Shown here: in pieces, positions 2,727-21,009 of the stretch
Numbering within the stretch: the first letter of the stretch is position 1
How the letters are laid out: every line of letters starts with the position of its first letter
Source of the DNA: a virus
Strand: one strand, 5' to 3'
IMG/VR virus record: IMGVR_UViG_3300031974_003126
Span: 1 to 21,586 of that record
DNA: 21,586 nt
Notes under the pieces: model-generated
The model's input: the letters and a program-made list of their open reading frames with translations, nothing else
Databases searched by the model: none
What the model was told of the DNA's origin: nothing
Position numbers and translations under genes: made by a program

Positions 2727-2949
2727 CTAATGCCTCTCTAATTTGTTCTATATTTGCCATAACTGATGCCCAATCTTCGTCATCTACATATGACTTTTGT
2801 GTAATCCATAATTTTACAAAATCGTCATTAGGATCTAAATCATCTAATATACCGCGGATGTTAGATTCAAAAAGACTGTAGCAACTCATCAAATCACCGT
2901 TGTCCATATGAGTCATAATTTCTCTAGAGTATTTTATAAGTTCATCCAT
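2719..2949 (-). CDS. Small acidic hypothetical protein
   Basis: A 76-residue, strongly acidic, mainly helical protein beginning MDELIKYSREIM. I prefer the ATG at 2949 to the in-frame TTG at 2958: the ATG sits 8 bases inside the epimerase stop region, and a GGAG lies about 10 bases before it. The C-terminal half (FVKLWITQKSYVDDEDWASVM) has regularly spaced aromatic and hydrophobic residues typical of a helical bundle. I see no cysteine cluster, nucleotide-binding motif or membrane segment. It may be a small phage regulatory or host-takeover protein, but nothing in the sequence demonstrates this. Confidence 0.7.
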   Translation of the reverse strand: MDELIKYSREIMTHMDNGDLMSCYSLFESNIRGILDDLDPNDDFVKLWITQKSYVDDEDWASVMANIEQIREALDA

Positions 2950-3814
2950 TTTTACCAATCTCCAATTTATATTGGTCTAAGCACATATCTTCGATACTTT
3001 TTTCTAGTGTAACTAAATCGCTTAGATTATCAACTACGCTTGCAACAGCATCGCCCGCTCTACGACCTGCTTCAACGATATTTAACTTTTTACCAGTTAC
3101 TTGCTCCATAGTACTGATTACTTCTCGTACACTGTATCCAACGTTGCTACCGAGACATTCGTAGTCCGTATTAGCGGGACCACGCTCGACTCCGTTGACA
3201 ATGGCACTAGCCAAATCAACAACATGAATATAATCACGAATACAAGTACCATCCCTAGTATCATAGTCCGTACCAAAGATCTTAATGTTGGGTAATTTCT
3301 CAGCAGCCACCATAGCAGCAACACGAATAAGATGGGTAGGAACGCCCAATTGACGATTATGCCCGTCAGTACCAGATACGTTAAAAAATCTAAAGATAGT
3401 GTATCCATTGGCTTTCTCCTTGATTACATCTTCTGCTGCCACTTTGCTACGTGCATATGGTGATGCCATTTCCCAAGCACTACTTGTACTAGCAAATAGT
3501 ACATGTGGGGTTTCTACACGATCCAACAAGTTAGCAGTACCCATAACATTTACACGATAGTACTCTGTTGGTTCACGTAAACTGTCAGGTACTACACTGC
3601 GTCCTGCTAAATGTACAGCAGCATCGTATATATCAAAAGGTACATGATTACCTGTTATGTCTACTTTGTCGTAATAGTCACAGTATGCAAGCACATCGTT
3701 TGTTTCGCTGTGGATTTCTGTATCCCAACCGAAAACTGTATGTCCGTGCTCTTTTAATAGTTTACAAACATGACTACCAATGTAACCGCTTGCACCTGTA
3801 ACTAATACTTTCAT
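2942..3814 (-). CDS. NAD-dependent sugar epimerase (GalE-like)
   Basis: An extended short-chain dehydrogenase of the nucleotide-sugar epimerase family, 290 residues. The NAD-binding Rossmann motif GASGYIG lies at residues 7-13, the Ser/Thr cluster of the active site at 109-112, and the YxxxK pair is Tyr120/Lys124 (SPYARSK). Downstream are a DGTCIRDYIHVVDLA segment and a GYSVREVI segment, both typical of UDP-glucose 4-epimerases. It is about 40-50 residues shorter than bacterial GalE, mostly in loops, as is common in phage versions. It probably interconverts UDP-hexoses (C4 epimerisation) for the glycosyltransferases in this window; the exact sugar cannot be read from sequence. The ATG at 3814 forms an ATGA overlap with the AhpD-like gene stop. 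Confidence 0.88.
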   Translation of the reverse strand: MKVLVTGASGYIGSHVCKLLKEHGHTVFGWDTEIHSETNDVLAYCDYYDKVDITGNHVPFDIYDAAVHLAGRSVVPDSLREPTEYYRVNVMGTANLLDRVETPHVLFASTSSAWEMASPYARSKVAAEDVIKEKANGYTIFRFFNVSGTDGHNRQLGVPTHLIRVAAMVAAEKLPNIKIFGTDYDTRDGTCIRDYIHVVDLASAIVNGVERGPANTDYECLGSNVGYSVREVISTMEQVTGKKLNIVEAGRRAGDAVASVVDNLSDLVTLEKSIEDMCLDQYKLEIGKNG

Positions 3815-4210: not shown

Positions 4211-4810
4211 TTATTGCTCTCTTAGTTTTCCTGATAATGCTTTTAATAGCAATCCGTATGCTGGTAGGAAGATAATCAATCCTACTGCAATCTTTAGTAC
4301 AGTTTGCGATCCTGCAATTTCCATCCAGTTTGCTGCCATATATTCATCTGCGCTATTATGGAATGCAACTGCAAAGAATGTATAACTATCAATTACGTTT
4401 GCAACAATAGTTGACAATGCCGGTGCTAACCACCATGCACGATACTTTTCACGCAAGTATTGGAATACATATACGTCTAGCATTGTACCAACTGCATATG
4501 CTGTAGCACTTGCAAAGCCGATACGTAGTGCAACACTCTGCGGTGCACCTTCTAGCAATACTACTGCAATACTACCAATAATAGCAAGCGGATAGGCTGC
4601 TGCGATAGTTGCTCGTGCAATGTTCTTACCTAGCATACGCACTGTAAGATCTGTTGCAAGAACAACAATAGGGAATGTAAATGCAGCCCAGGTTAGTTTT
4701 ACTCCAAAAAATTCAACTGGAATACTAACCAAAGCATTACTTACTATGACGACAACAACATGCAATAAGGCAAGTTTAATCATCATACTTTTATCAATAT
4801 CTTTAAACAA
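4211..4810 (-). CDS. yhhQ: YhhQ-type queuosine precursor (preQ0/preQ1) transporter, TTG start
   Basis: A 199-residue polytopic membrane protein of the YhhQ/DUF165 (queuosine precursor transporter) family, with about six hydrophobic segments. Family landmarks are a strand-to-helix stretch PIVVLATDLTVRMLGKN (47-63), LDVYVFQYLREKY (111-123), and NVIDSYTFFAVAF (138-150), which matches the conserved Asp/aromatic segment near the pore. E. coli YhhQ imports preQ0 and preQ1 across the inner membrane. The start is TTG at 4810: a strong AAGGAG lies 6 bases before it, while the first in-frame ATG (4786) has no ribosome-binding site. With a DpdA-like transglycosylase and a QueD-like gene nearby, it probably feeds 7-deazaguanine base to DNA modification. 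A role in host tRNA queuosine salvage is the alternative. Confidence 0.88.
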   Translation of the reverse strand: MFKDIDKSMMIKLALLHVVVVIVSNALVSIPVEFFGVKLTWAAFTFPIVVLATDLTVRMLGKNIARATIAAAYPLAIIGSIAVVLLEGAPQSVALRIGFASATAYAVGTMLDVYVFQYLREKYRAWWLAPALSTIVANVIDSYTFFAVAFHNSADEYMAANWMEIAGSQTVLKIAVGLIIFLPAYGLLLKALSGKLREQ

Positions 4811-4828: not shown

Positions 4829-6004
4829 TTAATACTTTGCAACCGCTACTTGATCTCTGTAACGATTGCTATCACGGCGCCACTGCTCACCATTACCTTG
4901 CATTATGTCAATGTAACGATCAATAGTTGCACTGGTCCAATCAGAAATTTTGCCTAAGTCTTTGTGTGGTGCGTTTAGCAAAGGTGTCAATTTATTCATT
5001 GCATCTTCTATACTCCACGGAACATACATACGTGTATGATCATTGGCAAAAATTTCTGGAAAACTGCGATAAGCAGGGAATAACACATTGCATCCTAGTG
5101 CGTCTGCTTCACTCACAGTATTACTTGTCCAATCCTGCAATGCACAATTAAACAATACTTTACTATTATTTACAATATCGTAGTAATTATTCTTTTGCAA
5201 GTTTTCATAAATTGTAAGTAATCCAAGTTCTTCCATCTTACGAGCACGTTCGATGTATTGTGGATTATTACTACGCAAAGGTCCGCCCTGGAGTATACAA
5301 AACTCTACATCTGCTGTACCAGGTGTTCCATACCATTCTTCAATCATATCCATGTAAAAGTCTGGTTGTTTTTCTTGATCAAAACGTGCTGCAAACACTA
5401 CACGATTGTCACGCTTTTCCCAATTGTTTATTTCTCCAACACGTAAAGCAACTTCTGTTTTATCAAATGCAAGTCCGCTGATGTTGTAGATAGGCGCTTT
5501 CCAGTTTGCAATCTTCATGTTAGCAACCATTTCTTCATTACTTGCTAGTACGCCAGTAACAAACTCGTTGCACATTTCTTCATACAAACTCATCCACTTG
5601 CCCATACCCCAAACATGCACAAAGTCATCTGGGTCAACTGCTTGTGCTAAACAACGAATCCAAACTTGCGGCTGTTGTTCTGCTGGAATCTGATCCATAA
5701 TGTAAGGCAACGACTCCATACCAGGTTGAAACATATCTTCAAAGAAGATAACGTCTTCGCCTGTTACTTCACCGTTGCGCATCATTTGCACCAAGTTCAT
5801 CATTTGCGACATCGCAAAGTAGGAACGGCCATGTGCATCTAGCACTTGACCTACTTGAATTGCTTTTGTGTTATCAATAGTTGTACCTGGAACAATTGTG
5901 TAATCAATACCACGTGTCTTGAATACACGTTCACTCCAGTCTTGCAACTGAAGTGTGTAACGTCCTTCGTAAGGCTCCAAGCCCATGTAAAATAGTTTAC
6001 GCAT
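4829..6004 (-). CDS. GT-B fold glycosyltransferase (GT4-like)
   Basis: A 391-residue protein. The C-terminal half has a classical GT-B donor-binding layout: RVVFAARFDQEKQPDFYMD (201-219, the strand-loop-helix start of the donor domain), a middle strand AL.IYENL, then VSEADALGCNVLFPAYRSFPEI (297-318), whose Glu-Ala-x-x-x-Gly resembles the E/G element that binds the nucleotide sugar in GT4 enzymes. The N-terminal half (MRKLFYMGLEPYEGRYTLQL) would bind the acceptor. It starts on a TAATG junction with the 68-residue gene and precedes the YhhQ-like transporter by 18 bases. Acceptor unknown: its place inside the 7-deazaguanine cluster makes DNA a possible target, while virion or cell-surface glycan is the alternative. 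No signal peptide or membrane anchor is visible, so it acts in the cytoplasm. Confidence 0.78.
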   Translation of the reverse strand: MRKLFYMGLEPYEGRYTLQLQDWSERVFKTRGIDYTIVPGTTIDNTKAIQVGQVLDAHGRSYFAMSQMMNLVQMMRNGEVTGEDVIFFEDMFQPGMESLPYIMDQIPAEQQPQVWIRCLAQAVDPDDFVHVWGMGKWMSLYEEMCNEFVTGVLASNEEMVANMKIANWKAPIYNISGLAFDKTEVALRVGEINNWEKRDNRVVFAARFDQEKQPDFYMDMIEEWYGTPGTADVEFCILQGGPLRSNNPQYIERARKMEELGLLTIYENLQKNNYYDIVNNSKVLFNCALQDWTSNTVSEADALGCNVLFPAYRSFPEIFANDHTRMYVPWSIEDAMNKLTPLLNAPHKDLGKISDWTSATIDRYIDIMQGNGEQWRRDSNRYRDQVAVAKY

Positions 6005-6229: not shown

Positions 6230-6685
6230 TTATGGGTAAACAATTTGACAGCCGTTTTCGCCATCTTCGGCGACATCAATAACAACAAACCGGCCGGGAT
6301 ATTTGTCGTTAATCTGTAAGTACAAATCATCTGCGATCATTTCGCATGACTTGTAATCTAATTGTAGTACATCATCTTTGTACAAGTTTTCCAACCAACG
6401 TTTGAATTGAATAAATTCAATATCTCTGTCATTGTGTGTTACTTGAATTTGTACTTTAAAGTGAAATGTATGACGATGCGGATATCCTAAGAAACTTACA
6501 TCGTATTCATCACCTGTTGCCAACGCAGGATCGTCAAGTGCTGCTGGATATTTGTGAATACCTTCTTTAGTAAAGGTTACCCAGATACTTCGTTTTGCGT
6601 TGTCTAATCTATGTGTAATACTCAATTTAGCGTCCTCTTCTCTCATGCGCCTTTGCATATATGTATAATAACGTTCTTGTGACAT
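6230..6685 (-). CDS. QueD-like (6-carboxytetrahydropterin synthase fold) protein
   Basis: About 151 residues from the ATG at 6685. The order of elements fits the 6-pyruvoyl-tetrahydropterin/6-carboxytetrahydropterin synthase fold: ITHRLDNAKR (His25), PHRHTFHFKVQI (His70, His72) in place of the zinc-binding HGHxY, DRDIEFIQFKRWL (87-98) in place of vDFxxlK, SCEMIADDLYLQI in place of pTxEnlA, and a final VAEDGENGCQIVY strand. QueD makes 6-carboxytetrahydropterin on the way to preQ0. The usual catalytic Cys just before HGH is not seen, so activity may differ. A TTG at 6697 is possible but poorly supported. A promoter at 6665-6693 would instead make the in-frame ATG at 6646 (MREEDAKLSI) the first start on its transcript, and the protein from there still contains all the landmarks. 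Confidence 0.6.
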   Translation of the reverse strand: MSQERYYTYMQRRMREEDAKLSITHRLDNAKRSIWVTFTKEGIHKYPAALDDPALATGDEYDVSFLGYPHRHTFHFKVQIQVTHNDRDIEFIQFKRWLENLYKDDVLQLDYKSCEMIADDLYLQINDKYPGRFVVIDVAEDGENGCQIVYP

Positions 6686-6693
6686 ATTGTCAA
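6665..6693 (-). promoter_or_regulatory. Sigma70-type promoter before or within the QueD-like gene start
   Basis: On the minus strand a perfect TTGACA (6688-6693) is followed after 17 bases by TATTAT (6665-6670, five of six matches to TATAAT). The start of transcription would be near 6658, about 12 bases before the in-frame ATG at 6646. This copies the spacing seen in front of the clamp and polymerase genes. Two alternative starts for the QueD-like protein (6685 from read-through, 6646 from this promoter) follow from it. Confidence 0.55.
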
Positions 6694-7214
6694 GCAATTA
6701 CTTCATCTGTGGTGTATTTAGACCAATCTGTAAAAACAGCCTTCTCTTTTAAATCATGCAGTCTATGAACCCATACGCCTGGGTTACTTGCATCAAAATC
6801 TTTGTCATCTACTTTTAGACAAGCATTGTATCCAAGTTGATCAATATATGGCAATCTAACACTGATCATCGGAATAAAGCGATTGTATTCAGTAAATCCA
6901 CTTTCTAGCAATCCTTCAATCTGCGAAACATCGATATCCAATGTTACCCAATATCCTTCTTTCAACAATGGAAATACCATGGATTCCCAAGGTTCCCATT
7001 GACTTGCAGTGTTGCTAGTAACATTGAAACTCATGTTTGCACCACAGTAAATATGCTTACATCCATATTCGTCTGCAATACTCATAATTTCATCAACATT
7101 TTTTACACCTACAACAAACAGCGTTTTCTTTCCATACTGTGGTGTATGTTCTACTTCAGTACCTATAAACATAGATACATCGTCTTTTGTTCCTTGGTCA
7201 TAAATTCGTTTCAT
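6690..7214 (-). CDS. Conserved phage protein of unknown function, TIM-barrel-like, paired with QueD-like gene
   Basis: A 174-residue protein with alternating hydrophobic strands and helices: KTLFVVGV, then EIMSIADEYGCKHIYCGANMSF, then PLLKEGYWVTLDID, then RFIPMISVRLPYI, then ACLKVDD. This looks like a partial (beta/alpha) barrel. It ends just before the QueD-like gene (4 bases before its ATG) and starts on an ATGA overlap with a 57-residue gene, so it lies in the 7-deazaguanine cluster between DpdA and QueD. The missing pathway step there would be QueE, a radical SAM enzyme of similar fold and size. However, this protein lacks any radical SAM cysteine cluster (only three scattered Cys), so it is not a normal QueE. 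I assign no function. Confidence 0.65.
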   Translation of the reverse strand: MKRIYDQGTKDDVSMFIGTEVEHTPQYGKKTLFVVGVKNVDEIMSIADEYGCKHIYCGANMSFNVTSNTASQWEPWESMVFPLLKEGYWVTLDIDVSQIEGLLESGFTEYNRFIPMISVRLPYIDQLGYNACLKVDDKDFDASNPGVWVHRLHDLKEKAVFTDWSKYTTDEVIA

Positions 7215-9793: not shown

Positions 9794-9822
9794 ATAATAC
9801 TGCCTTTATTTGTCTTTGTCAA
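9794..9822 (-). promoter_or_regulatory. Sigma70-type promoter for the sliding clamp
   Basis: A perfect TTGACA at 9817-9822, a 17-base spacer, and TATTAT at 9794-9799 (five of six) on the minus strand. Predicted start near 9787, 13 bases before the ATG at 9774, leaving just room for the GGAG at 9781-9784. It overlaps the 3' end of the UDP-glucose dehydrogenase-like gene (stop 9806). Likely read by host RNA polymerase with its housekeeping sigma factor, giving early expression of clamp and DpdA. Confidence 0.75.
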
Positions 9823-10567
9823 GTTTTAATTTTGTGTTGTAGTACACTGCTGCACTTAGTGTATTTAGATTTATTTTCTTTTCTGCTGCCATTTTTAATA
9901 GCGCACTAGTATCCTTTGGAAAGCAAAAACCTCCCCAGCCTCTTATACCATCTTCAGGATACACCAAAGTATGGCTATTTGTAATACGATTATCTGCACC
10001 TACGCCGGCTCTAACATTATCAAAGTTGATGTCGTATGCATTACAGAAATCGTATATTTCATTAAAGAAACTAACTTTTGTAGCAAGGAATGCATTACGG
10101 AAATATTTGATTGCAATTGCTTCTTCTGGTTGTACAATAGTTAATTTCATTTTAGGCCAATTATAACTTACTTGATCACGCCAATAATCTGTATCGCCAC
10201 TTAGTATAATATGATCTAATTCTTTAATATCATTCATAAAGTTTGCTGCTCGCAAAAATTCTGGGCTAAAACATAGTCTATGTTCTGGAAAGCGTTCTTT
10301 TAGTTCCTGCCAACCTTGCAAACTTATTGTACTTTTGATTAATATTGGTGTTGTATTACTGCATTTAGAAACAACATCAAACACTGCACTCATATCACAA
10401 GTACCGTCATCGGCTTGCGGTGTTGCTACACATATAATAACTGCACTTGTATTGTCAAAGTCTGCATTATATCCTTTTGCAGGATCGTGTATTATAATTT
10501 CTCTTCTATGATTCTTGAATAATAATTCATGTGCTTTTCCTACAAAGCCATACCCTGCTATAATCAT
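9806..10567 (-). CDS. UDP-glucose/GDP-mannose 6-dehydrogenase-like protein, short form
   Basis: A 253-residue member of the nucleotide-sugar dehydrogenase family. The N-terminal NAD-binding motif is GYGFVG (5-10); next come VICVATPQADDGTCD (43-57), KSTISLQGW (78-86), CFSPEFLRAANF (99-110), and the active-site cysteine motif GGFCFPKDT (212-220, Cys215). The catalytic cysteine and lysine are therefore intact. Full-length enzymes are about 390-440 residues; this one ends after the central helix and lacks the C-terminal UDP-binding domain. It may use another nucleotide sugar or need a partner. It normally oxidises UDP-glucose to UDP-glucuronate. It is ATGA-coupled to the phosphomannomutase-like gene, so it acts in the same sugar pathway. 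Confidence 0.85.
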   Translation of the reverse strand: MIIAGYGFVGKAHELLFKNHRREIIIHDPAKGYNADFDNTSAVIICVATPQADDGTCDMSAVFDVVSKCSNTTPILIKSTISLQGWQELKERFPEHRLCFSPEFLRAANFMNDIKELDHIILSGDTDYWRDQVSYNWPKMKLTIVQPEEAIAIKYFRNAFLATKVSFFNEIYDFCNAYDINFDNVRAGVGADNRITNSHTLVYPEDGIRGWGGFCFPKDTSALLKMAAEKKINLNTLSAAVYYNTKLKLDKDK

Positions 10568-11277
10568 GCTGCTATCTTTGCCTCTTGAAAGTGTTGTAAT
10601 CTTTCCATTGTGTCACGCCAGTCTTTAACATTAAAACAACCTTTTTTGTGTAGTTTTGCTGCTAACGGCCAATCGTTGCCGCCTTGTTCTATTTTATCTC
10701 CAAAGAAATAAATTTTATCATTTTGATTAAAGTCTTCTAGTATTTGACTTTTATCACATCCTTTGCGATAGATATCAATACCTGTTTCTCCACCTACTGT
10801 TGCAGTTATATCAGGAAACTCGCTGTTAATTTGATGAGCGATAGTTTCTCGCTCTCGCATATTTTCATCATGCTTAACATATAGTTTGCGTTCTCCTATT
10901 GTACAGTTACGGCCTACAATACTAAAGTTAATTGTACCCATACGTTCTTCGATATGATTACCTGTACGTAGTGGAAAACTACTACCCTGTAGCCAACCTT
11001 GCATTAAATCGTATAGTTCTTTTGGTGCTTCGAATGACTTTGCATTTACACGTTTGCCCTTAAGGTATACATCATTGCCTGAACAGTTATAAACAGTAAC
11101 AACTGATTCGCAGATTTCTTTGCCAAGTTGCTCTACAGTTTTAGCATAGTCACTACCAGTTACTAGCCATACTTTGTTGTCTTTTATAAATTGTAAGAAA
11201 AACTCTTTAAACGTAGGATCAATGACTTGTCTACTAGGAGTAAGTGTTCCGTCAACATCAAAAATAAATTTATTCAT
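10564..11277 (-). CDS. HAD-superfamily phosphomannomutase-like protein (eukaryotic PMM type)
   Basis: A 237-residue HAD hydrolase. The N-terminal motif FDVDGTLTPSRQ (6-17, nucleophile Asp7 and acid/base Asp9) closely resembles eukaryotic-type phosphomannomutase; motif II is LVTGSD (38-43), and the C-terminal motif is IYFFGDKIEQGGNDWPLA, which matches the PMM 'FFGDKT.PGGND.EI' metal-binding loop. The size equals that of PMM (about 245). The probable reaction is mannose-6-phosphate/mannose-1-phosphate interconversion or a related sugar phosphate step. It lies between a cytidylyltransferase gene and a UDP-glucose dehydrogenase-like gene and overlaps both neighbours, so a nucleotide-sugar pathway is likely. 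A simple sugar phosphatase is the alternative. Confidence 0.8.
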   Translation of the reverse strand: MNKFIFDVDGTLTPSRQVIDPTFKEFFLQFIKDNKVWLVTGSDYAKTVEQLGKEICESVVTVYNCSGNDVYLKGKRVNAKSFEAPKELYDLMQGWLQGSSFPLRTGNHIEERMGTINFSIVGRNCTIGERKLYVKHDENMRERETIAHQINSEFPDITATVGGETGIDIYRKGCDKSQILEDFNQNDKIYFFGDKIEQGGNDWPLAAKLHKKGCFNVKDWRDTMERLQHFQEAKIAA

Positions 11278-11428
11278 GTACGCATACTACCTTTTCGTCT
11301 TCTGTAAATGTTTTTTCCAACACTGCTTTATTAATTTCACATTGCTGGCTAGTGATATAACTGTTAAACTTTGTAACTTTGTACTCGTCAAAGTCTGCAA
11401 CAAAACTAATAATAAAAAGTGTCCACAT
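11270..11428 (-). CDS. Small hypothetical protein with hydrophobic N-terminus (52 aa)
   Basis: Reading from the ATG at 11428 gives 52 codons to a TAA at 11270-11272. The N-terminus MWTLFIISFVADFDEYKV is hydrophobic, followed by a hydrophilic part with two Cys (FNSYITSQQCEINK and VVCVHE). It could be a short signal-anchored or exported protein, although the hydrophobic run (about 10 residues) is short. The junctions support it: its start shares TAATG with the cytidylyltransferase stop, its end overlaps the phosphomannomutase-like start by 8 bases, and it fills an otherwise empty 150-base gap. Small proteins of this plan, with 'MWTL' starts and a late Cys, are frequent in marine myoviruses. Function unknown. 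Confidence 0.65.
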   Translation of the reverse strand: MWTLFIISFVADFDEYKVTKFNSYITSQQCEINKAVLEKTFTEDEKVVCVHE

Positions 11429-11835
11429 TATACTTCACATACCCTTCGTCTAAGATCGCTTGTGCTAAAGCGATGGTCACGTTTGTTGAAATACAGATCT
11501 ATTTCACGTTTACGGCAAATATCCTTGCCAGTAAAATCTTTGTCTCTGTATTCTTCTCCTAGTATTCTAACATCTATATGATACATTGTCAATATATCTT
11601 CTAGGTCTTTTTCGGTGCCATATGGTATAATTTCATCTACATATTTTACACCTTTGAGTTGTGTATAACGCTCTACAATGGTTTGCACAGGAGCATTCTT
11701 TTCTTCTCTATCTACACTTGGATCCATTTGCAATGCACATATTAAATAATCGCATTGTTCTTTTGCTTCACGTAACATTTGTATATGTCCTGCATGTAAC
11801 AAATCAAATGTACTACATGTAAATCCTACTTTCAT
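11428..11835 (-). CDS. Cytidylyltransferase (TagD/RfaE-C-like nucleotidyltransferase)
   Basis: A 135-residue nucleotidyltransferase. The signature is STFDLLHAGHIQML (8-21) with the HxGH pair His14/His17, and the C-terminus has FNKRDHRFSTSDLRRR (the 'STS.LR.R' motif that binds the triphosphate). Length fits glycerol-3-phosphate cytidylyltransferase (about 130). It would transfer CMP or another NMP to a sugar or polyol phosphate. Together with the neighbouring phosphomannomutase-like protein this suggests synthesis of an activated sugar or polyol; the true substrate cannot be told. The ATG at 11835 forms ATGA with the zinc-protein stop. Confidence 0.85.
   Translation of the reverse strand: MKVGFTCSTFDLLHAGHIQMLREAKEQCDYLICALQMDPSVDREEKNAPVQTIVERYTQLKGVKYVDEIIPYGTEKDLEDILTMYHIDVRILGEEYRDKDFTGKDICRKREIDLYFNKRDHRFSTSDLRRRVCEV
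11564..11592 (-). promoter_or_regulatory. Candidate internal sigma70-type promoter
   Basis: TTGACA (11587-11592), 17 bases, TAGAAT (11564-11569, five of six) on the minus strand, inside the cytidylyltransferase gene. It could serve the 52-residue protein and phosphomannomutase-like genes downstream, but it lies about 130 bases before the next start, unlike the close promoters of clamp and polymerase. Confidence 0.3.
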
Positions 11836-11999
11836 TGCTGTTTTCTTTCAAACTTAATATCACAATAGTTACAAACTGCATAACCTTCATGCGGTACTTT
11901 TATATATACTAGTGGATGATCATTATTATCACCACTACACTTTGCAGTGTCGCCATCTACTTGTACTATACGTTCTTTATATCCTTCAATTCTTTCCAT
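11832..11999 (-). CDS. CHCC zinc-finger protein
   Basis: A 55-residue protein beginning MERIEGYKERIV. It contains the CHCC zinc-binding pattern: Cys21 (KCSGD), His28 (DHPLVYIKV), Cys43 and Cys46 (VCNYCDIKF), closely like the zf-CHCC domain of mitochondrial NDUFS6 and its small alphaproteobacterial relatives. I choose the ATG at 11999 over the TTG at 12014: the GGGG just before the polymerase stop lies 5 bases upstream, and the ATG comes one base after that stop. It sits directly after the polymerase, the place of the translational repressor regA in T4, but shows no RegA similarity. An alphaproteobacterial host is compatible with this gene. Function in phage unknown. Confidence 0.75.
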   Translation of the reverse strand: MERIEGYKERIVQVDGDTAKCSGDNNDHPLVYIKVPHEGYAVCNYCDIKFERKQQ

Positions 12000-12000
12000 A

Positions 12001-14682
12001 TTAACCCCATTCAAATAGCGTGTTAAATGTGTTGTTTTGTTTTGTGCTTTCTAAGTCATAGTTCAGCACACCAATAAGGTTGCCTAATTTGTTGTCAATA
12101 ATAACTTCTTCCATTGCATCGCCATCAAACGGCAGTTCTTTGAACCAATCCGGAATACGGAGTTCATCTGTTGGATACGCAACACTAGTATATTGTAACG
12201 GATTTTGCTTTAATTTGCAAACAATAACTTTCATACCATCTACAATGTCTTGCGAATACTTGTCGCCATTCATACGCTTGAGTGTATTCCAATTAATACT
12301 TGCTCTAACGTGTCCTGGCATATTTGCTTTGCCTTGCTTTTCTTCAAGACGTTGATAATGTCCAATTTTGTTTGCACGTTTAGGTGAACCTTTTTCAAAG
12401 CCTGGGCGTTCTTTGAATTCACGTCTAAAGTCTGTAATGCTTTCTAGCAATTCTTTTTCTGGCTTTAGATCTAACACCATGTCTAGTAACGTTTTCAAAT
12501 AGTCTTGCATAAACACAGGTGTATCACTGCGTTTCAAGTCCAAGCCCATTGCCTTAACTTTACCTAAACTACCTTCTTTGTCTTTTCTATCGCCTTCTAA
12601 GTCATAAACACGCACTGCATAACGTTTCTTTGTAATAAACAAGCCTGTGTCTGCAACAACTTCTCTTGCTGCTGCAATAACTTCGCTTCGTGGACGTGGG
12701 CAATGGAATGCATCACGCATAAAGTCTGGGAATGTTGTGTTTGCTTGTTCACAAAGTTGGTCATACAATGTAATAACATTGTCTTTGCCCCAAGGCACTG
12801 TTCCTGCTGCAATCTCATCTTTGAGTACAGGATATGCACTAAAATAAACAGAGTCTGTATCGCCATATATAATTGCTTTGCCTACATGATCATACGTACC
12901 TGTAATAATCTTGTTAACTTCTGCACTCATATGTTTTGCAATCTGTCTACCAGTAAGCGTAGTTGATTGTCCAATACGTTTATCAAAGAATCTACAACCA
13001 GGATTCAAAATAGCGCCATACAAACTGTTCAAGTTAATCTTTTTAACCAACTGACGTTTATCCCAAAACGCTATTTCTGTACTGTTGTTTGCATCAATTG
13101 CTTTACGCATCTTTGCTTGTAGTTCTTTACGTTCAGCATACCAACGTTTTAGCAACCCCGGAATCACACCTTCAATTTCTGTAGTGAAGATTGTACCATT
13201 AGCACTAAGCATCCATGGTTGATTGCTGTCAAAAATAAGTTTGTAAATCTCTGCACCACTTAACACATGGCTACTACCATCTTCCAAGTCCAAGTGCAAC
13301 GATACATCTTTGCGTTGTTCCATTACAGCATCATATTCTAGTGTAGCAAATTTGCCTTCCCAAGCACCTGCAAAACTTTTCTTTTCCAGTGTGGTTGCAT
13401 TATGCAAAAACTCATCTGTCAAGTCAGGACGTATTTGTCCTACAATAGTTTCTGGAGCCATATTCATTGCACGAATAATACTTGGATATAGACTGTTCAA
13501 ATCCATGCTGCCAATCCACTCGTGTACGCCTTTTTTTGGAAATGCTACATATGCACCTGCGGCGGCTGTGTTGCCCTCGTGATTCGCTCTATTAGGAACC
13601 TGCATACCACGTCTGTGTGCTTCATTAACAATAGCCTGCTCAGTAACTGCAACTGCGCCTGCTGTTGTTTGTAATAGCACTGTGTTGTCGTGTGCAATTT
13701 CATTTGCAAGATCAATGAAACGTAGTTTCTTATCCAGTTTATCAAGCAATGCAACGTCTTGTCTATTATATTCAATAAATGTTTCAAAGTCATTGTTGTA
13801 AAGTTGATCAAGTGTACCTTCATACACAGTCTTGTTTTCACCAACTTCCATTTCACCAATAGCATCTAGTCTATATGTGTGTCGTTCTTCATATGTGTAC
13901 TTGCGATACAAGTTGAGATAGTCCATATGCACTCTACCAATAGTATCATATGTTTCGCTCATCTTGCCAAACTTTTCATATTCTCTACGCTTGGGCAACT
14001 GTCCCCATAAACAAAAACGTCTTGTGTCATCCTTGCTCAACACACGTTGTATTCTGTTAATTGTGTATGGAACATCATAACCTTCACTGTTCCAACCACT
14101 GTGAATATCTGCATCCTCAATCAAGTCAAGGAATGCTTCAAGCATTTGTCCTTCGCCTTGTTTACTATTAGGATATAATATACAATTATCGCCCCAACGT
14201 TCTTTACACATTGCTGCTGCTTCTTCCATTGGAAGGCCTTTGGGCGGCATAGCAACTGTAATCAACATATCAAGCCATTGCAAATGCACTGTAATTGCAG
14301 TGATTGGCATAAACGGATCTTCGACTGGAGCAAAGCCACGCTCTGGATCAAAGTCTGTCTCGATATCCCAAAACGCCACGTTCAACTTTGGTGCATCTTG
14401 GTTCAAGTAATTTTCACTCAAGCATTGGAATATTGGATTTACATCCGATTCGAACATCTTCTTGCCTTTGTTTATAGCAAGTTCTTTGCGGAAGTCTTTT
14501 GTGTTTTTACACACTACACGTTGCAGTTGATCACCAAAGATGCTTTTGTATTTGCCTCGTGGGTCTTCATAATACCAAGTGTATTTTGCTTGATATTCGT
14601 TATACAGACGCTTTCCGTCTTTGCGTTCTACTGCACGAATAATATCAGCGTCTCTGTCAAAAAATGCATCTACGTATGGCAT
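12001..14682 (-). CDS. 43: T4-type family B DNA polymerase
   Basis: A complete 893-residue replicative polymerase (T4 gp43 has 898). The 3'-5' exonuclease motifs are present: Exo I WDIETD (Asp106, Glu108), Exo II in SGWNSEGYDVPY (195-206) and Exo III EYNRQD (304-309). Polymerase motifs follow: A at MDLNSLYPS (393-401), B at KKINLNSLYG (547-556) and C at YGDTDS (606-611, Asp608 and Asp610). A KKRYAVRVYD segment and MGLDLKRSDTP lie in the thumb region as in T4. The C-terminus NTLFEWG carries aromatic/hydrophobic residues suited to clamp binding. It synthesises phage DNA with proofreading. The ATG at 14682 has AAGGAG 5 bases upstream and its own promoter (14701-14728). No intein or split is seen. 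The regA/62/44 genes that follow 43 in T4 are absent here. Confidence 0.97.
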   Translation of the reverse strand: MPYVDAFFDRDADIIRAVERKDGKRLYNEYQAKYTWYYEDPRGKYKSIFGDQLQRVVCKNTKDFRKELAINKGKKMFESDVNPIFQCLSENYLNQDAPKLNVAFWDIETDFDPERGFAPVEDPFMPITAITVHLQWLDMLITVAMPPKGLPMEEAAAMCKERWGDNCILYPNSKQGEGQMLEAFLDLIEDADIHSGWNSEGYDVPYTINRIQRVLSKDDTRRFCLWGQLPKRREYEKFGKMSETYDTIGRVHMDYLNLYRKYTYEERHTYRLDAIGEMEVGENKTVYEGTLDQLYNNDFETFIEYNRQDVALLDKLDKKLRFIDLANEIAHDNTVLLQTTAGAVAVTEQAIVNEAHRRGMQVPNRANHEGNTAAAGAYVAFPKKGVHEWIGSMDLNSLYPSIIRAMNMAPETIVGQIRPDLTDEFLHNATTLEKKSFAGAWEGKFATLEYDAVMEQRKDVSLHLDLEDGSSHVLSGAEIYKLIFDSNQPWMLSANGTIFTTEIEGVIPGLLKRWYAERKELQAKMRKAIDANNSTEIAFWDKRQLVKKINLNSLYGAILNPGCRFFDKRIGQSTTLTGRQIAKHMSAEVNKIITGTYDHVGKAIIYGDTDSVYFSAYPVLKDEIAAGTVPWGKDNVITLYDQLCEQANTTFPDFMRDAFHCPRPRSEVIAAAREVVADTGLFITKKRYAVRVYDLEGDRKDKEGSLGKVKAMGLDLKRSDTPVFMQDYLKTLLDMVLDLKPEKELLESITDFRREFKERPGFEKGSPKRANKIGHYQRLEEKQGKANMPGHVRASINWNTLKRMNGDKYSQDIVDGMKVIVCKLKQNPLQYTSVAYPTDELRIPDWFKELPFDGDAMEEVIIDNKLGNLIGVLNYDLESTKQNNTFNTLFEWG

Positions 14683-14700: not shown

Positions 14701-14728
14701 ATTATACTATATTTTTTCCTTTTGTCAA
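14701..14728 (-). promoter_or_regulatory. Consensus sigma70 promoter for DNA polymerase
   Basis: Perfect TTGACA (14723-14728) and perfect TATAAT (14701-14706) separated by 16 bases, on the minus strand. The -10 box overlaps the TAA stop of the upstream putative glycosyltransferase (14702-14704). It is the best promoter in the window and should drive early transcription of the polymerase operon. Confidence 0.85.
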
Positions 14729-15712
14729 CTGTTTTGCTTGTTCTACTGCTTTGTTTATTACGGCAATTATTTTTTGTGCGTCTGGTGTAAATTCTGCTTC
14801 CATACTGATTACATCGGGTTTGTCACCATATGCAATATCATTTACAAATTTGTTGTGATTATATTCACAAACCTCTGCCATTTGTTCTGCTGCACCTTTG
14901 TAATCTTTGATTTTTTGTAACTGTTCTATTAAAACTTCTATACGCTGTTCCATTGTATTTAGGCTATCAAACTCATAATCTATTACATCATGGAACAATT
15001 TATAACCTTTGTCTTCTAGTGTGGTATTTAGATCCTTTGCGCCAACAAGTATGCTAGGCATTTTCCACAACATAGGCATCCATGTTTTTTCTGTGTGCAA
15101 CACGATTTCATCTGTGCTTTCTGGTGTAATAAGGAATAAACTACGCTTCCAAACATCCACAGGCGGTGGAGGATTTGTATCACTGTCAAACACAAAGTCT
15201 GGATCAAAGTCTTTGCTTTCTACAAATCTATCTACCTGTTTGTGCCAATCAGGAGTATTAGGTATCTTGTCCCAAATATCTTCTAATCGTTTGTAGTATA
15301 TTTCGCCATCTAAATCTGCGTTGAGCAACCTTTCTACTAGCGTGTCTTTGTGGGGCCTATATGTTAGTGTTTGCAAATGATACAACTGTTCGGGTGTATG
15401 TGGTACTTCTTTGTATTCTTGCCAGCCTAAAAACTGATCAAATTCTGGCCAAGGCTTATGAAAACTACTATCATTGTGTCTTGGATGAATAATGTTACAA
15501 TGATATATTAATCTATTGCTTGTATATAAATCGTGTAGTATCTCACGCTCTTCGTCATCACGCAATATCATATGACGTATAAATTCATATGCTACACCTT
15601 CTTCGCTCCAGCCTAATACGTGCAGTTTATCAAATTGTTTGTCTTTTAAACTTTTAATATCAATATCCAAACGTACTGTTGGTTCAAATATTGTACTTGT
15701 CACTAGATCCAT
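14702..15712 (-). CDS. Putative glycosyltransferase-like protein (YRPH/EKTW family, 336 aa)
   Basis: I choose the ATG at 15712 (MDLVTSTIFEP): a strong AAGGAG lies 5 bases before it, whereas the GTG at 15781 has no such site and lies deep inside the radical SAM gene. Landmarks shared with the 421-residue protein at 649-1914 are TYRPHKDTLVERL (117-129), FLITPEST (193-200), an acidic/His patch followed by HTEKTWMPML (206-215), PSILVGAKDL (219-228) and GYKLFHDVIDYEFD (236-249). The EKTW.P...P.ILVG core is typical of phage glycosyltransferase-like C-terminal domains. The C-terminus from about 290 is a charged helical tail. It overlaps the radical SAM gene by 10 bases. Sugar and acceptor unknown, and glycosyltransferase activity is inferred only. 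Confidence 0.65.
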   Translation of the reverse strand: MDLVTSTIFEPTVRLDIDIKSLKDKQFDKLHVLGWSEEGVAYEFIRHMILRDDEEREILHDLYTSNRLIYHCNIIHPRHNDSSFHKPWPEFDQFLGWQEYKEVPHTPEQLYHLQTLTYRPHKDTLVERLLNADLDGEIYYKRLEDIWDKIPNTPDWHKQVDRFVESKDFDPDFVFDSDTNPPPPVDVWKRSLFLITPESTDEIVLHTEKTWMPMLWKMPSILVGAKDLNTTLEDKGYKLFHDVIDYEFDSLNTMEQRIEVLIEQLQKIKDYKGAAEQMAEVCEYNHNKFVNDIAYGDKPDVISMEAEFTPDAQKIIAVINKAVEQAKQLTKGKNIV

Positions 15713-16557
15713 GCACTCTCCTTCTTTGTAGCAAGTGGCGCAATACAATGTGTTTTTGCACTTTGCGGACATAATGTACACTGTGGCATAGGCTTGTGTA
15801 GTTTTTCAAAAAATTCTGTCAAGTCGTCATCTGGATGTGCCGGCTTGTACTGTTGCAATAAATCTATTGCATGATCTTCTAAAGGAAACTGTTGTATTAA
15901 ATCTGCACTTACACTAGTTAAATGACATTGATACATAAGTCCTTTGTTAAAGTGTGTACAAGGCGGTTCTCCTCCTAAACATACTTTGTGTGCTAATGTA
16001 CTGTTACTTCTATGAAACTGCCATTTATTGTTTTTAACGCCTTTTTTGGCGCTGCTTATAAAATCTGTAGTTTGGTACAATATAAAGTATGGATGATTGC
16101 TATTATGTGCTACATATCGTACCTCATCCTCAAAATTTACAATTTTATAAGGTTTTTCATTTAAAACCTCTTTTATGCTGTTTTCGATGTCTTTTGTTAA
16201 ATTAGTGTCATGTATACTTATATCAATATACCAACCTAAATCTAATAATTGTTTTGCAGTATCTATGTGATTTTTTAACAAACTACCGTTGCTGCTAACA
16301 TAGTGCTTCACAGCATCGGGCCACAAATGTTTTAATCCAGCAGCCCAGTTTAAAATATCAGGATTAGTAAAAGGTTCACCACCATGTAATGTAATTACAT
16401 TTATACTTACTATTTCACTCCAACGTTTGTATAAGTCTTTGTAATCGTCAAAACGAAAATGATTGCGAAAGTTAAAATTGTTAAAACTTTCGCAACCACT
16501 GCAAGTTAAATTACAAACATTGGTGATGTTAAACGCACCGTCAAATATACGGTACAT
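15703..16557 (-). CDS. Radical SAM enzyme with C-terminal cysteine cluster
   Basis: A 284-residue radical SAM protein. CX3CX2C is at Cys15, Cys19 and Cys22 (VCNLTCSGC) and GGEPF at 59-63, with a SSNGSLL strand further on that fits the barrel. Beyond the core there are further cysteines: two with HLTS-flanking Cys around residues 195-215 (CLGGEPPC and YQC) and a C-terminal CTLCPQSAKTHC. These resemble the auxiliary Fe-S cluster ligands of SPASM/twitch enzymes, which act on peptides and proteins. The substrate is unknown. It begins on a TAATG junction with the DsbA-like gene and overlaps the next, putative glycosyltransferase gene by 10 bases. It is too different from the 1-671 protein to be a recent duplicate. 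QueE is unlikely because the cysteine spacing and length differ. Confidence 0.87.
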   Translation of the reverse strand: MYRIFDGAFNITNVCNLTCSGCESFNNFNFRNHFRFDDYKDLYKRWSEIVSINVITLHGGEPFTNPDILNWAAGLKHLWPDAVKHYVSSNGSLLKNHIDTAKQLLDLGWYIDISIHDTNLTKDIENSIKEVLNEKPYKIVNFEDEVRYVAHNSNHPYFILYQTTDFISSAKKGVKNNKWQFHRSNSTLAHKVCLGGEPPCTHFNKGLMYQCHLTSVSADLIQQFPLEDHAIDLLQQYKPAHPDDDLTEFFEKLHKPMPQCTLCPQSAKTHCIAPLATKKESAWI

Positions 16558-16823
16558 TAGGCGTCTTTATCGTATCCTGTTGTAGCAACAAGTGTTTCTA
16601 GATCTTCAAACTCATCTGCAACACGGCTCCAATCACGTTTCTGTGCAACTTTGATTGCTTTGTTAATCAAACTCGGTTTTACACTTAATTCTTCTGCAAC
16701 TGCTTTGATTGTTTCTTTTAATCCGCCCTGCAAATCTTCAATTTCTTGTAATACAGTAACACCTTCTTTCACCAGGCGTTCTAGTTTGGCCTTTTCTTCT
16801 TGGCCATACACTCTATCGCTCAT
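16557..16823 (-). CDS. dsbA: DsbA-like dsDNA-binding protein (late transcription)
   Basis: An 88-residue acidic helical protein, the same size as T4 DsbA (89), a double-stranded DNA-binding protein that helps late transcription. The central and C-terminal parts can be laid against T4 DsbA: a helix LKETIKAVAEELSV with a following KPSLINKAIKVAQKRD and VADEFEDLETLV, corresponding to T4's 'AKDELGVDGKMFNRLLALYHKD....EAETEEVVEL'. The N-terminal EKAKLERLVKEGVTVLQEIEDLQ looks like a coiled coil. The ATG at 16823 has AAGGAG 6 bases before it in a 30-base gap, and a possible promoter lies at 16848-16876. The call rests on length, helix pattern and context, so it is moderate. Confidence 0.62.
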   Translation of the reverse strand: MSDRVYGQEEKAKLERLVKEGVTVLQEIEDLQGGLKETIKAVAEELSVKPSLINKAIKVAQKRDWSRVADEFEDLETLVATTGYDKDA

Positions 16824-18423: not shown

Positions 18424-21009
18424 TTAATCAAACCACCCTGCAAAGTTTTTCCACCAGCGTTCATAGAACCATTTATCATACCACTCGTCGTCTTTTACTC
18501 TAACAATCTCAGCAACTTCATTGACAAATTCTTTAAGTTCTTCTCTTACTTCTGGCTCAACTTCTTCGCCACGTTCATTGATAATAATGTCTATATATTC
18601 TAATATAATCTGTGCTTGATTACGATCCAATTCTTTAATAGAATTAGTTCTTGTTCTTAGGATTTTTGCGTGTTCTAATGTTGGTTCTTCCTGTAAGTTT
18701 CTTAAACTGTCAATTACTGCTGGCGGCAGTTCACTTCTACGTATATCTAATTCAAGTTCTTTACCAATTTTTTTAGCCAATTGTTTTGCTAATGAATTAT
18801 TAAACCAACCAAATCCTGTTGCTAGTGTATTTTCTTCTTCATATAAATCTTCCAATAAATCTTCTGCTCCACCAAGAGATCTATATTCTTCGTTTATTCT
18901 ATCGTAATCTGCTTTGTTTCTAATTTGAGCGATTATTTGTTTCATTCTATCTCTGTCGCCGCCACTTTGCCATCCATCGATTGAATCTTTAAATAGTTTT
19001 GCTATGGTTATTGTAGCAATCATCGGTAATGTTACATCTGCTACACCTAACAATTTGTTCATTGGTGCGTCTGGTTCCAGTGTTCCTTCTAACACTCTGA
19101 TAACAGCATCTTCACCTCCAAATGCATTCTCAAAAGGCTCGCCGTGTAAACTATCATATGTTCTATACATATCTTCAATGCGTGAAGCAGCATCAGGCAG
19201 AGATACTAGTTCTTCGACTGCATCATTAAATTCTTCTTCGTCATTTGTATGTAATCTATCAATAAGATCCATTTCCTCTTCTGATACTTCTGCCTCGTCA
19301 TCTAATGTTGTAGTAAATATTCCTGCTCTTCCTCTAGCACCTTCTGATTCATACTTAGGATCAAAATAAATATTGACTGCTGCTGAATCAGGATCATCTG
19401 CTGTTCCGATCAAAAATTCTCTGTCTTTTTTAACTTCTTTTTCATACCATATTTTTAAGTTGGCTTCGGTCATGCCGTTTTGTAAATATTTTGCACCTCT
19501 TAGTGTTTTTGCAATTGCCATTCTATCACCAAATGGAACAGCAATCATTTCATCAAATGGAGCCTGATTAGTATACCATGCTACCATTTCTGGATACTGT
19601 GTATCTAATACATCTACAAATAAAAACTTAGCATCTTCTAAAGTAATATCATCTACTTCAATGTTTAAATCTGGAACAGTACCGCCAGTTTGTTGTATAC
19701 CTACTTTTAAAATTGCATCTTCTAAAATAGCATTTTTTATTGGTTTATTGTTTAACAATACAACAACAGCATTGTTTTGTAATTCTTTGTTTATAGTGTA
19801 ATTTTTATTTACATGAGTTACTTCTATCGATGCTTGTTCTCCAAACTGAATATTATCTAACATTGCAATTGGAGCAATTCTATTAATAGACTCTAAACTT
19901 AGTCTAACAATTCTCAAATATTCATCATCATCCAATTCTTCAACTAAACGTTCTTGTAAATCTTCGTTAAACTGCTGTTTGTATGCTGCTTCTACAGCAT
20001 CATAATCTGCTGCTGTTTTAAGTTGCATAAACAATTGATTTACACTATCTATATCATTGTCTACATCTCTAGATGTTACTATTGCAATAAATTTATTTTC
20101 CAATGCTTCATGCATTGCTTGCGCCCAAGCAGTATGATTTGCTGCATTCATTTGAGGCTGGTTAGCAGACACTGATTGTTGCTGTGCTATTTTTTCTTGT
20201 CTTTGTTGTTCTTCTAGTTGAAATAATCCAACTGCCATTTTACTGAAATAATCATACAAAGCCTTTGCTGCTCTTTCCGGTCCACCTGAAACAACAGGAG
20301 GAACAAAAGACATTGTTTCACCTGTACCTAATGTTGCTTTTGCTTGAGTTTGACTACGAACAACTTCTTGCACCCAACGGTTACGCCACTTGTCTGGAAA
20401 AAGTTGATAACTACTTTCTACTATTGGCATCATACGTTTTATTTCAGTTTCTCTTTGGGTAGGTTTTTCGTATTTTTCCATTGCTAAATGATTCAATATA
20501 ATCATCCAACCACTAAAACCAATTCCTTCAATAAAACTTTTTGTATCAATTACATCTTCACGCTTAACATCGCCCAGTTTTCCATGTTGATATGTTCTAC
20601 CTTTAAAACTAGGTGCTTGACTAGGATCACTTCTTATGTTACCTTGATTGTTTATTGCTAGGGTACCGTTATTGCTGAGTCTTTTATAAAGTAAAAAATC
20701 TATGTCGTTGGAGCCTTGTATACTCGGACCTACTGACAGTATAGGACGTCCTACTTGTCTGTTAATACTTTTTTTCCATTCTACAATTGCGTTATCTAAA
20801 GCAGGTGTCCATTCACCATTGATAGGTCCTGTCCATGCCGAGCCACCTACTCTTTTAGGATTCATGCTTATTACCAACGCATGTCTTGCTAAAGAACGTT
20901 TTAATTCAATAACTGCTGCGTCATTATAATCTTGAGCATTCAAACTTAAACGTAATTGTGTTCTATATATGTCTAGAACACCTTCAATAAGCAATTCGGT
21001 AAGTTTCAT
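18424..21009 (-). CDS. Large putative virion-associated protein with annexin-like internal repeats (861 aa)
   Basis: An 861-residue acidic protein starting MKLTELLIEG, an N-terminus style common to large proteins of T4-like marine phages. Residues 63-118 (NGEWTPALDNAIVEWKKSI to DIDFLLYKRLSNNG) resemble a peptidoglycan-binding-like helical module, weakly. Residues 262-290 are Gln-rich, probably a linker. Three helical segments at about 316-372, 582-642 and 674-730 share the layout 'hhxxLxxLxxxADYDxhxxxYxxxxGxxLxxxLxxE' (for example LKTAADYDAVEAAYKQQF and IRNKADYDRINEEYRSLG), like annexin-type repeats. The C-terminus has aromatic and charged residues (DDEWYDKWFYERWWKNF). No enzyme motif is visible. 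It follows the 21010 gene immediately (TAA then ATG). A structural or ejected internal head/tail protein is an inference. Confidence 0.75.
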   Translation of the reverse strand: MKLTELLIEGVLDIYRTQLRLSLNAQDYNDAAVIELKRSLARHALVISMNPKRVGGSAWTGPINGEWTPALDNAIVEWKKSINRQVGRPILSVGPSIQGSNDIDFLLYKRLSNNGTLAINNQGNIRSDPSQAPSFKGRTYQHGKLGDVKREDVIDTKSFIEGIGFSGWMIILNHLAMEKYEKPTQRETEIKRMMPIVESSYQLFPDKWRNRWVQEVVRSQTQAKATLGTGETMSFVPPVVSGGPERAAKALYDYFSKMAVGLFQLEEQQRQEKIAQQQSVSANQPQMNAANHTAWAQAMHEALENKFIAIVTSRDVDNDIDSVNQLFMQLKTAADYDAVEAAYKQQFNEDLQERLVEELDDDEYLRIVRLSLESINRIAPIAMLDNIQFGEQASIEVTHVNKNYTINKELQNNAVVVLLNNKPIKNAILEDAILKVGIQQTGGTVPDLNIEVDDITLEDAKFLFVDVLDTQYPEMVAWYTNQAPFDEMIAVPFGDRMAIAKTLRGAKYLQNGMTEANLKIWYEKEVKKDREFLIGTADDPDSAAVNIYFDPKYESEGARGRAGIFTTTLDDEAEVSEEEMDLIDRLHTNDEEEFNDAVEELVSLPDAASRIEDMYRTYDSLHGEPFENAFGGEDAVIRVLEGTLEPDAPMNKLLGVADVTLPMIATITIAKLFKDSIDGWQSGGDRDRMKQIIAQIRNKADYDRINEEYRSLGGAEDLLEDLYEEENTLATGFGWFNNSLAKQLAKKIGKELELDIRRSELPPAVIDSLRNLQEEPTLEHAKILRTRTNSIKELDRNQAQIILEYIDIIINERGEEVEPEVREELKEFVNEVAEIVRVKDDEWYDKWFYERWWKNFAGWFD

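Follow-up and report, generated by a model that had tools for sequence, protein, structure and literature searches.

The window analysed here, a fragment of 21,586 nucleotides (21.6 kb) covering positions 1 to 21,586 of IMG/VR virus record IMGVR_UViG_3300031974_003126, belongs to a large marine phage of bacteria. Between the genes for its family B DNA polymerase (polB) and its sliding clamp it carries a cassette of enzymes that very likely makes a nucleotide sugar. The cassette lies beside genes for a DpdA-like guanine transglycosylase, a transporter homologue of the preQ0/preQ1 uptake family and a putative glycosyltransferase (GT), a neighbourhood that is probably a 7-deazaguanine DNA-modification cluster and would act on DNA, not on tRNA. 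We propose that the cassette is an early supply of activated sugar to the DpdA-linked GT; counting any DNA acceptor, we give this proposal a chance just short of even. That the cassette serves this GT at all is somewhat likelier, slightly better than even. That the sugar is placed on the 7-deazaguanine base of phage DNA is possible, and we put it forward tentatively.

All recognised genes of the window are on the minus strand (Table 1), in the order polB, zf-CHCC zinc protein, nucleotidyltransferase, 52-aa protein, phosphomannomutase (PMM)-type HAD enzyme, UDP-glucose dehydrogenase (UGD)-like enzyme, clamp and DpdA-like transglycosylase. One nucleotide separates polB from the CHCC gene, ATGA junctions join the CHCC gene to the nucleotidyltransferase and the PMM to the UGD-like gene, TAATG junctions link the nucleotidyltransferase to the 52-aa gene and the clamp to the transglycosylase, and the 52-aa and PMM genes overlap by 8 nt. 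A gap of 31 nt leads from the UGD-like gene to the clamp ATG at 9774, to which we correct the start from the TTG at 9822. The clamp protein matched nothing in Pfam or PDB by sequence and was therefore modelled: its AlphaFold2 (AF2) model (pLDDT 88.5) has the PCNA/gp45 fold over 223 residues, the whole length (Z 18.2). A first-pass annotation had named this clamp and these five intervening genes. The clamp is borne out by its fold, not its sequence, and the genes are all there, in the order given; the interval assigned to them, 9806–11835, contains the cassette but leaves out the CHCC gene. Relatives were compared gene by gene (80 of the polymerase and 80 of the nucleotidyltransferase, best matches only, so that the fractions hold for near relatives and not for all phages), and in them the CHCC and 52-aa genes are optional. 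The core of the set is the nucleotidyltransferase and the PMM-type enzyme.

The motifs of the three enzymes are well preserved. The nucleotidyltransferase, of the HIGH superfamily, has HAGH as its HxGH motif, with H14, G16 and H17 invariant in 93 relatives. Its substrate signals diverge: PHROG points to the HldE type and the PDB matches are ethanolamine-phosphate (ECT) and glycerol-3-phosphate (TagD) cytidylyltransferases, and the sequence does not decide between them. No sugar-nucleotide pyrophosphorylase (PF00483) was found in the 13 large records searched, which makes the HIGH enzyme the candidate sugar-activating enzyme. The PMM-type enzyme aligns to eukaryotic phosphomannomutases over most of its length; its DVDGTLTP, IEER and VGRN segments align to the nucleophile and sugar-phosphate arginine motifs of 5ue7, and D7, D9, R112, R123 and R130 are invariant in 65 sequences. 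Homologues 48–52% identical occur in cyanophages S-SSM7 and P-TIM68. The UGD-like enzyme has the NAD domain and the catalytic cysteine motif (GFCFPKD; C215, K218 and D219 invariant in 27 sequences). It gave no match to PF03720, the C-terminal UDP-binding domain; the protein stops after the central domain, and every complete relative (246–261 aa) lacks the C-terminal domain too. Because this nucleotide-binding domain is missing, we call the enzyme UGD-like only and do not assign UDP-glucose as its substrate.

The assignment of the neighbourhood to 7-deazaguanine chemistry starts from the DpdA-like protein. By sequence it matched nothing in Pfam or PDB; its AF2 model has the fold of tRNA-guanine transglycosylase (TGT), aligning 306 residues to the Thermotoga maritima enzyme (2ash) with Z 19.8. 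Both TGT catalytic aspartates are present, D100 (DSGGFQ) and D293 (DCASPF), placed by motif and not by active-site superposition, and invariant in 25 sequences. Genes for preQ0 synthesis or uptake cluster with it: the QPTR-family transporter in the window, and FolE, QueE, QueF and QueC in relatives. FolE occurs in 8 of 10 large relatives, FolE and QueE lie a few kb downstream of the GT in relatives, and Vibrio phage 2.275.O has QueF, QPTR, QueC and FolE in the corresponding region. The hydroxymethylase/thymidylate synthase family (PF00303) is absent from 9 of the 10 large relatives, these records being fragments, and present in relative G010 and in cultured jumbo phages.

The putative GT is itself linked to dpdA across phages and bacteria. 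Depositors annotated its family as glycosyltransferase in Phosso and PAC2; several members match PF00534/PF13692 weakly (E 0.001–0.09), phrog_4356 is matched at E 0.002, and searches of PDB with the family gave nothing or only E 0.04–0.05. One branch of the family occurs in only 19 of 50,697 cultured-phage records, 15 of them with a TGT-like gene and/or queD/folE/queE beside it: it adjoins dpdA in the PA5oct group and folE/queE in Phosso, in Acidovorax phage ACP17 it has queD/folE on one side and queE on the other, and in Xanthomonas phage X1 its neighbour is annotated as queuine tRNA-ribosyltransferase. An amino-sugar cluster is instead the setting of the four weaker matches (Xhv-12/15/16 and Ep032). 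The window's branch, joined to the first by BLAST, has a counterpart with 70% identity in Synechococcus phage BUCT-ZZ01, whose host is S. elongatus PCC 7942; there, too, the gene is part of a cluster with QueE, QueD and FolE. Viral loci outside the window's clade with full flanks have dpdA and folE in 20 of 20 cases; the ACP17 protein, used as query against viral contigs, matched only ACP17 itself. When 84,980 species genomes of bacteria and archaea were scanned, 23 GT loci emerged, mostly in Alphaproteobacteria. A DpdA-type gene is close by in 20 of them, as a rule the direct neighbour, and FolE or QueE occurs in 2 of the other 3. Azospirillum and Shimia carry the window's trio of QPTR, GT and DpdA, the Shimia transporter matching slightly below the Pfam cut-off.

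Two observations from these scans concern the origin of the loci. Alphaproteobacterial GT-DpdA pairs, some with QPTR or QueD (loci L297, L299, L303, L308 and others), are possibly prophages or host DNA-modification islands. The phage cluster also appears on contigs binned as Neomarinimicrobiota, Euryarchaeota and Pacearchaeota metagenome-assembled genomes (L292, PBPT01000016.1; L293; L294), and the 335-kb L292 is probably a misbinned jumbo phage.

The cassette is in turn tied to this cluster. Of 71 relatives whose clamps are distinct, 5 have an empty polB-clamp slot, namely four cultured jumbo phages and marine locus L068. A nucleotidyltransferase is present in all 66 occupied slots and the PMM in 59. 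As third gene, 35 slots have only an SDR epimerase, 21 only the UGD-like gene and 4 both; 6 have neither. With 66 of 71 slots occupied, every one with a nucleotidyltransferase, the cassette is not a product of chance. CHCC, 52-aa, cupin, 2OG oxygenase, PsiE-like and flavin oxidoreductase genes are optional extras. The comparison of relatives that the first-pass annotation had proposed thus reveals a regular slot, and the random placement it had envisaged as counter-evidence does not occur: the polB-clamp slot accounts for 97 of 118 distinct nucleotidyltransferases and other places in the cluster for 15, with 6 outside it or on contigs too short to place. In all, 112 of the 118 lie inside the polB-dpdA-GT-folE cluster, in three different slots. 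A second lineage, its polymerase ~56% identical, has an empty polB-clamp slot; there a nucleotidyltransferase ~70% identical lies behind the GT and before FolE, usually after an SDR epimerase. The position of the SDR gene also follows the type of GT. Among clusters with the window's type, the SDR gene follows the GT closely in 57 of 61, and none has it between polB and clamp; where the other type is present, the polB-clamp slot contains the SDR gene in 29 of 36, and no SDR gene stands behind the GT. Apart from these clusters, a nucleotidyltransferase with 75% DNA and 84% protein identity occurs in Vibrio phages of ~191–195 kb (locus L001; pv27, Va1 and phiTY18); there it stands outside any polB/dpdA context, a likely case of transfer.

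What the cassette did not do is displace T4 genes, as had first been supposed. Like the T4 43-regA-62-44-45 cluster, the window has a family B polymerase and, after it in the same direction, a PCNA-fold clamp, but T4 has regA, 62 and 44 in between, and neither the window nor its nearest cultured relatives do. Those relatives, judged by polymerase, are the jumbo phages Phosso, Atu_ph07, Vibrio 2.275.O and 121Q, in which, as in PA5oct, polB and clamp are 75–560 bp apart with no cassette genes between; regA, 62 and 44 are absent from that position in the window and in all five. T4 is thus the wrong yardstick, because in the nearest cultured polymerase loci the two genes are simply adjacent. A gp44-type clamp loader (phrog_168, 261 bits) does occur outside the slot in G001, a relative of 256 kb, where it lies ~25 kb upstream of polB; the window record, itself a fragment, has none. 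A search for regA (PF01818) gave no match in 18 records and was uninformative, the positive control being silent as well. We therefore reject replacement of regA/62/44: the sugar genes are an insertion into a polB-clamp junction that was already unlike T4's, and nothing was replaced. At two loci (L162:695-1036 and L158:2295-2636) a 4Fe-4S ferredoxin-like gene overlaps the end of a gp44-type clamp loader gene.

The promoter pattern bears on timing. Sites were counted as sigma70-type when at least 11 of 12 consensus bases matched, which occurred in 0.3% of shuffled controls. The site upstream of the clamp qualifies in 64 of 73 distinct relatives (45 perfect), and a site upstream of g16557 (16557–16823), the small gene preceding polB, does so in 74 of 90. 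The g16557 protein matches phrog_639 (transcriptional regulator), and its gene is kept before polB even in PA5oct and Phosso. The perfect consensus directly before polB in the window is peculiar to this phage: no more than 6 of 94 relatives have a qualifying counterpart. The cassette genes have nearly no conserved promoter before them (nucleotidyltransferase, 2 of 100; PMM, 0 of 73; UGD-like, 0 of 27), which suggests that they are read from upstream with polB. Because the promoters follow the sigma70 consensus and are of the early type, the cassette is probably transcribed early, together with polB. The conserved promoter of the clamp, in turn, places the cassette at the end of the polB unit and not in mid-operon. 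The first-pass view of sugar genes in the replication operon, expressed early with the polymerase, accordingly stands, computationally, for the polB unit and its early-type promoters, but not for the clamp, which is separately promoted.

In G001, 8 coding-strand sites fall in the 20-kb piece with polB, clamp and dpdA, versus 0 to 3 per piece across 20–180 kb (including gp23); gp23 itself lies >100 kb from the cassette. The T4 late promoter TATAAATA is not enriched in any piece of G001, so that no late motif emerged for this clade, and a search for tail sheath (PF04984) gave no match above the cut-off. Within the nucleotidyltransferase gene there is an 11-of-12 sigma70-like site, TTGACA-17-TAGAAT (11592–11564, minus strand), found also in G001 at about 217555; it may act as a promoter within the gene or simply reflect codon conservation.

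Taken as a pathway, the genes would work as follows. The PMM-type enzyme would convert a hexose-6-phosphate into the hexose-1-phosphate, which the HIGH-superfamily nucleotidyltransferase would join to a nucleotide. The sugar might then be tailored by the NAD-dependent third enzyme (the short UGD-like protein here, an SDR epimerase/dehydratase in others) and by the SDR epimerase of the GT slot. In parallel, preQ0 or a related 7-deazaguanine would be imported by the QPTR protein or, in relatives with FolE and QueE, made, and the DpdA-like transglycosylase would exchange it for guanine in phage DNA. Finally, the GT would put the sugar on that base, yielding glycosylated 7-deazaguanine DNA resistant to host nucleases. 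We infer the enzyme activities, the sugar, its acceptor and the supply of this GT by the cassette; gene content, folds, catalytic motifs, conserved gene order, the promoter pattern and the GT-dpdA linkage in bacteria and phages were computed directly.

Several points weigh against this proposal. Its weakest step is the naming of the GT, which is putative and comes from sub-threshold Pfam matches and depositor annotation. PA5oct, Phosso, ACP17 and X1 have the GT with a TGT-like or preQ0 cluster and no cassette; the GT can thus function in its absence. The co-variation of SDR position with GT type amounts to two independent switches on the polymerase tree (sign test, 2 of 2 agree) and is for that reason suggestive, not significant. 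The nucleotide-binding domain of known UGDs is missing from the UGD-like enzyme. QueC was clearly found only in 2.275.O, which makes the identity of the base uncertain, and the literature accessible to our search describes no glycosylated 7-deazaguanine in DNA.

The main rival is that the activated sugars are used during infection to alter the outer polysaccharide of the host or a glycan that is secreted, for instance against superinfecting phages, and that the dpdA cluster is unrelated. Such a role has been ascribed to jumbo-phage and cyanophage sugar clusters that combine HIGH nucleotidyltransferases, epimerases and GTs (PMC7824862), the PMM homologue of cyanophage S-SSM7 lies near nucleotide-sugar epimerases, and further GT-like and radical SAM genes, varying among relatives, flank polB in the window. 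We nevertheless consider it unlikely, though with appreciable weight: it would leave unexplained why the nucleotidyltransferase keeps to the polB-dpdA-GT-folE cluster in whichever of three slots it occupies, and why the nearest GT family is tied to dpdA even in bacteria. The first-pass annotation had favoured modification of DNA or of the host over a late virion glycan; we go further and take DNA modification as the likelier purpose, since the cluster itself has genes for a DpdA-like transglycosylase, for a homologue of preQ0 transporters and for the putative GT linked to DpdA.

It is less probable again that the junction of polB and clamp, where a transcription unit ends, simply tolerates insertions and that the cassette is a cargo with no tie to replication or modification. 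The slot directly precedes the clamp promoter, also takes cupin, 2OG oxygenase, PsiE-like and flavin oxidoreductase genes, and is empty in PA5oct, 2.275.O and L068. Its content is too regular for cargo, however, with the nucleotidyltransferase in every occupied slot, PMM in 59 and UGD-like or SDR genes in 60, and the nucleotidyltransferase and SDR genes recur in other slots of the same polB-dpdA-GT cluster. A nucleotidyltransferase making a CDP-alcohol (CDP-glycerol or CDP-ethanolamine) for membrane or teichoic-type polymers, with the other two enzymes in separate sugar reactions, would suit its best PDB matches. That reading is very improbable, given that the best phage family is an HldE-type sugar-1-phosphate adenylyltransferase, that the gene co-occurs with PMM and a nucleotide-sugar NAD enzyme, and that no polymer-making genes were recognised in the window. 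Decoration of virion proteins (fibres, capsid), a use that phage sugar genes can have, is the least likely of all, in view of the early-type promoters, densest around polB-clamp-dpdA in G001, the distance to gp23 there and the lack of recognised structural genes in the window.

Chemistry related to that of the proposed DNA modification is known. Mannosyl- and galactosyl-queuosine carry a sugar on a 7-deazaguanine derivative, attached by a GT from a nucleotide sugar. This glycosylation is eukaryotic and takes place on tRNA, at the cyclopentene-diol of queuosine, whereas no queuosine-specific enzyme was recognised here. Phage 7-deazaguanine modification by DpdA with FolE, QueD, QueE and QueC (9g, nt-1, CAjan, Rosebush; PMC6884629) resembles the window's cluster in grouping a TGT-fold DpdA-like enzyme, a YhhQ-family transporter, FolE and QueE, YhhQ homologues being noted there in some phages. 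The cluster differs by its conserved putative GT, by the sugar-nucleotide cassette of this clade and by QueC, mostly not found; the passages of PMC6884629 consulted mention no sugar on 7-deazaguanine. T-even DNA glycosylation and pentose-modified cytosine (T4, RB69, Thanatos; PMC12838424) likewise combine a phage-made activated sugar with a GT for phage DNA, Thanatos TH1_063 being a phage UDP-xylose pyrophosphorylase (PMC12838424). Those systems act on (hydroxymethyl)cytosine, whereas here the neighbour is dpdA and PF00303 was not found in 9 of the 10 large relatives, themselves fragments. The sugar clusters of P-SSM2 and S-SSM7 (PMC7824862) share HIGH nucleotidyltransferases, NAD-dependent epimerases, GTs and HAD enzymes with the cassette, but are large and variable where it is compact and tied to polymerase and dpdA.

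Each part is therefore already known singly: 7-deazaguanine modification (PMC6884629), DNA glycosylation (PMC12838424) and jumbo-phage sugar clusters (PMC7824862). In the literature accessible to our search, which excludes most subscription papers, we found none joining a GT to dpdA. 7-Deazaguanine and sugar-decorated bases are two separate known protections of phage DNA, and a cluster joining both predicts a new DNA nucleoside. Such a cluster spans marine jumbo phages, Pseudomonas, Sinorhizobium, Acidovorax and Synechococcus phages and alphaproteobacterial loci. In its broadest form the proposal is that DNA of phages, and of some Alphaproteobacteria, carries glycosylated 7-deazaguanine through DpdA and a dedicated GT, and that marine jumbo phages add a nucleotide-sugar pathway in the polymerase unit; this is the most tentative version. 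If true, it would explain the sugar enzymes beside the phage polymerase, and dpdA-linked 'hypothetical proteins' gain a testable function.

Table 1. Features of the window, in the order of their minus-strand reading.
Feature	Position	Strand	Matches and remarks
sigma70-type promoter-like site upstream of polB	14701–14728	-	perfect consensus, TTGACA-16-TATAAT
DNA polymerase family B (gp43-type), polB	12001–14682	-	PF00136 124 bits; phrog_262 634 bits
zf-CHCC zinc protein, 55 aa, optional	11832–11999	-	PF10276 40 bits; in 6/88 intervals
HIGH-superfamily (cytidylyl/adenylyl) nucleotidyltransferase, 135 aa	11428–11835	-	PF01467 57 bits; phrog_7878 (HldE-type) 122 bits
52-aa protein, optional	11270–11428	-	no family match; in 16/88 intervals
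PMM-type HAD enzyme, 237 aa	10564–11277	-	PF03332 107 bits; phrog_29277 270 bits; PMM 5ue7 E 1.4e-31
UDP-glucose/GDP-mannose dehydrogenase-like enzyme, 253 aa	9806–10567	-	PF00984 82 bits; PF03721 38 bits
sigma70-type promoter of the clamp gene	9794–9822	-	TTGACA-17-TATTAT; kept in relatives
sliding clamp, PCNA fold, 242 aa	9046–9774	-	AF2 model; phrog_12062
DpdA-like guanine transglycosylase (TGT fold), 485 aa	7589–9046	-	AF2 model; directly after clamp
small conserved cluster protein g6690	6690–7214	-	found in most cluster relatives
small conserved cluster protein g6230	6230–6697	-	phrog_17812; adjoins GT or dpdA in bacteria too
putative GT-B-type glycosyltransferase, DpdA-linked family	4829–6004	-	related to PA5oct gp167, Phosso 'glycosyltransferase', ACP17 gp124, X1, BUCT-ZZ01
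QPTR/YhhQ-family transporter (preQ0/preQ1 uptake)	4211–4810	-	PF02592 86.7 bits, cut-off 27.2
SDR nucleotide-sugar epimerase of the GT slot	2942–3814	-	PF01370 122 bits; phrog_540 129 bits

Among the remaining genes, g6230 was considered as a QueD homologue, which is unsupported (hhalign, 35% over 38 columns only). The window further encodes a radical SAM protein (15703–16557) and, at 14702–15781 and 649–1914, two GT-like proteins that are weakly related and share a C-terminal motif, ILVG...G[YF]K.F. The stretch between g16557 and polB, where radical SAM and GT-like genes lie, differs strongly from relative to relative, and an 861-aa protein (18424–21009) is weakly conserved (26–33%) among otherwise close relatives.

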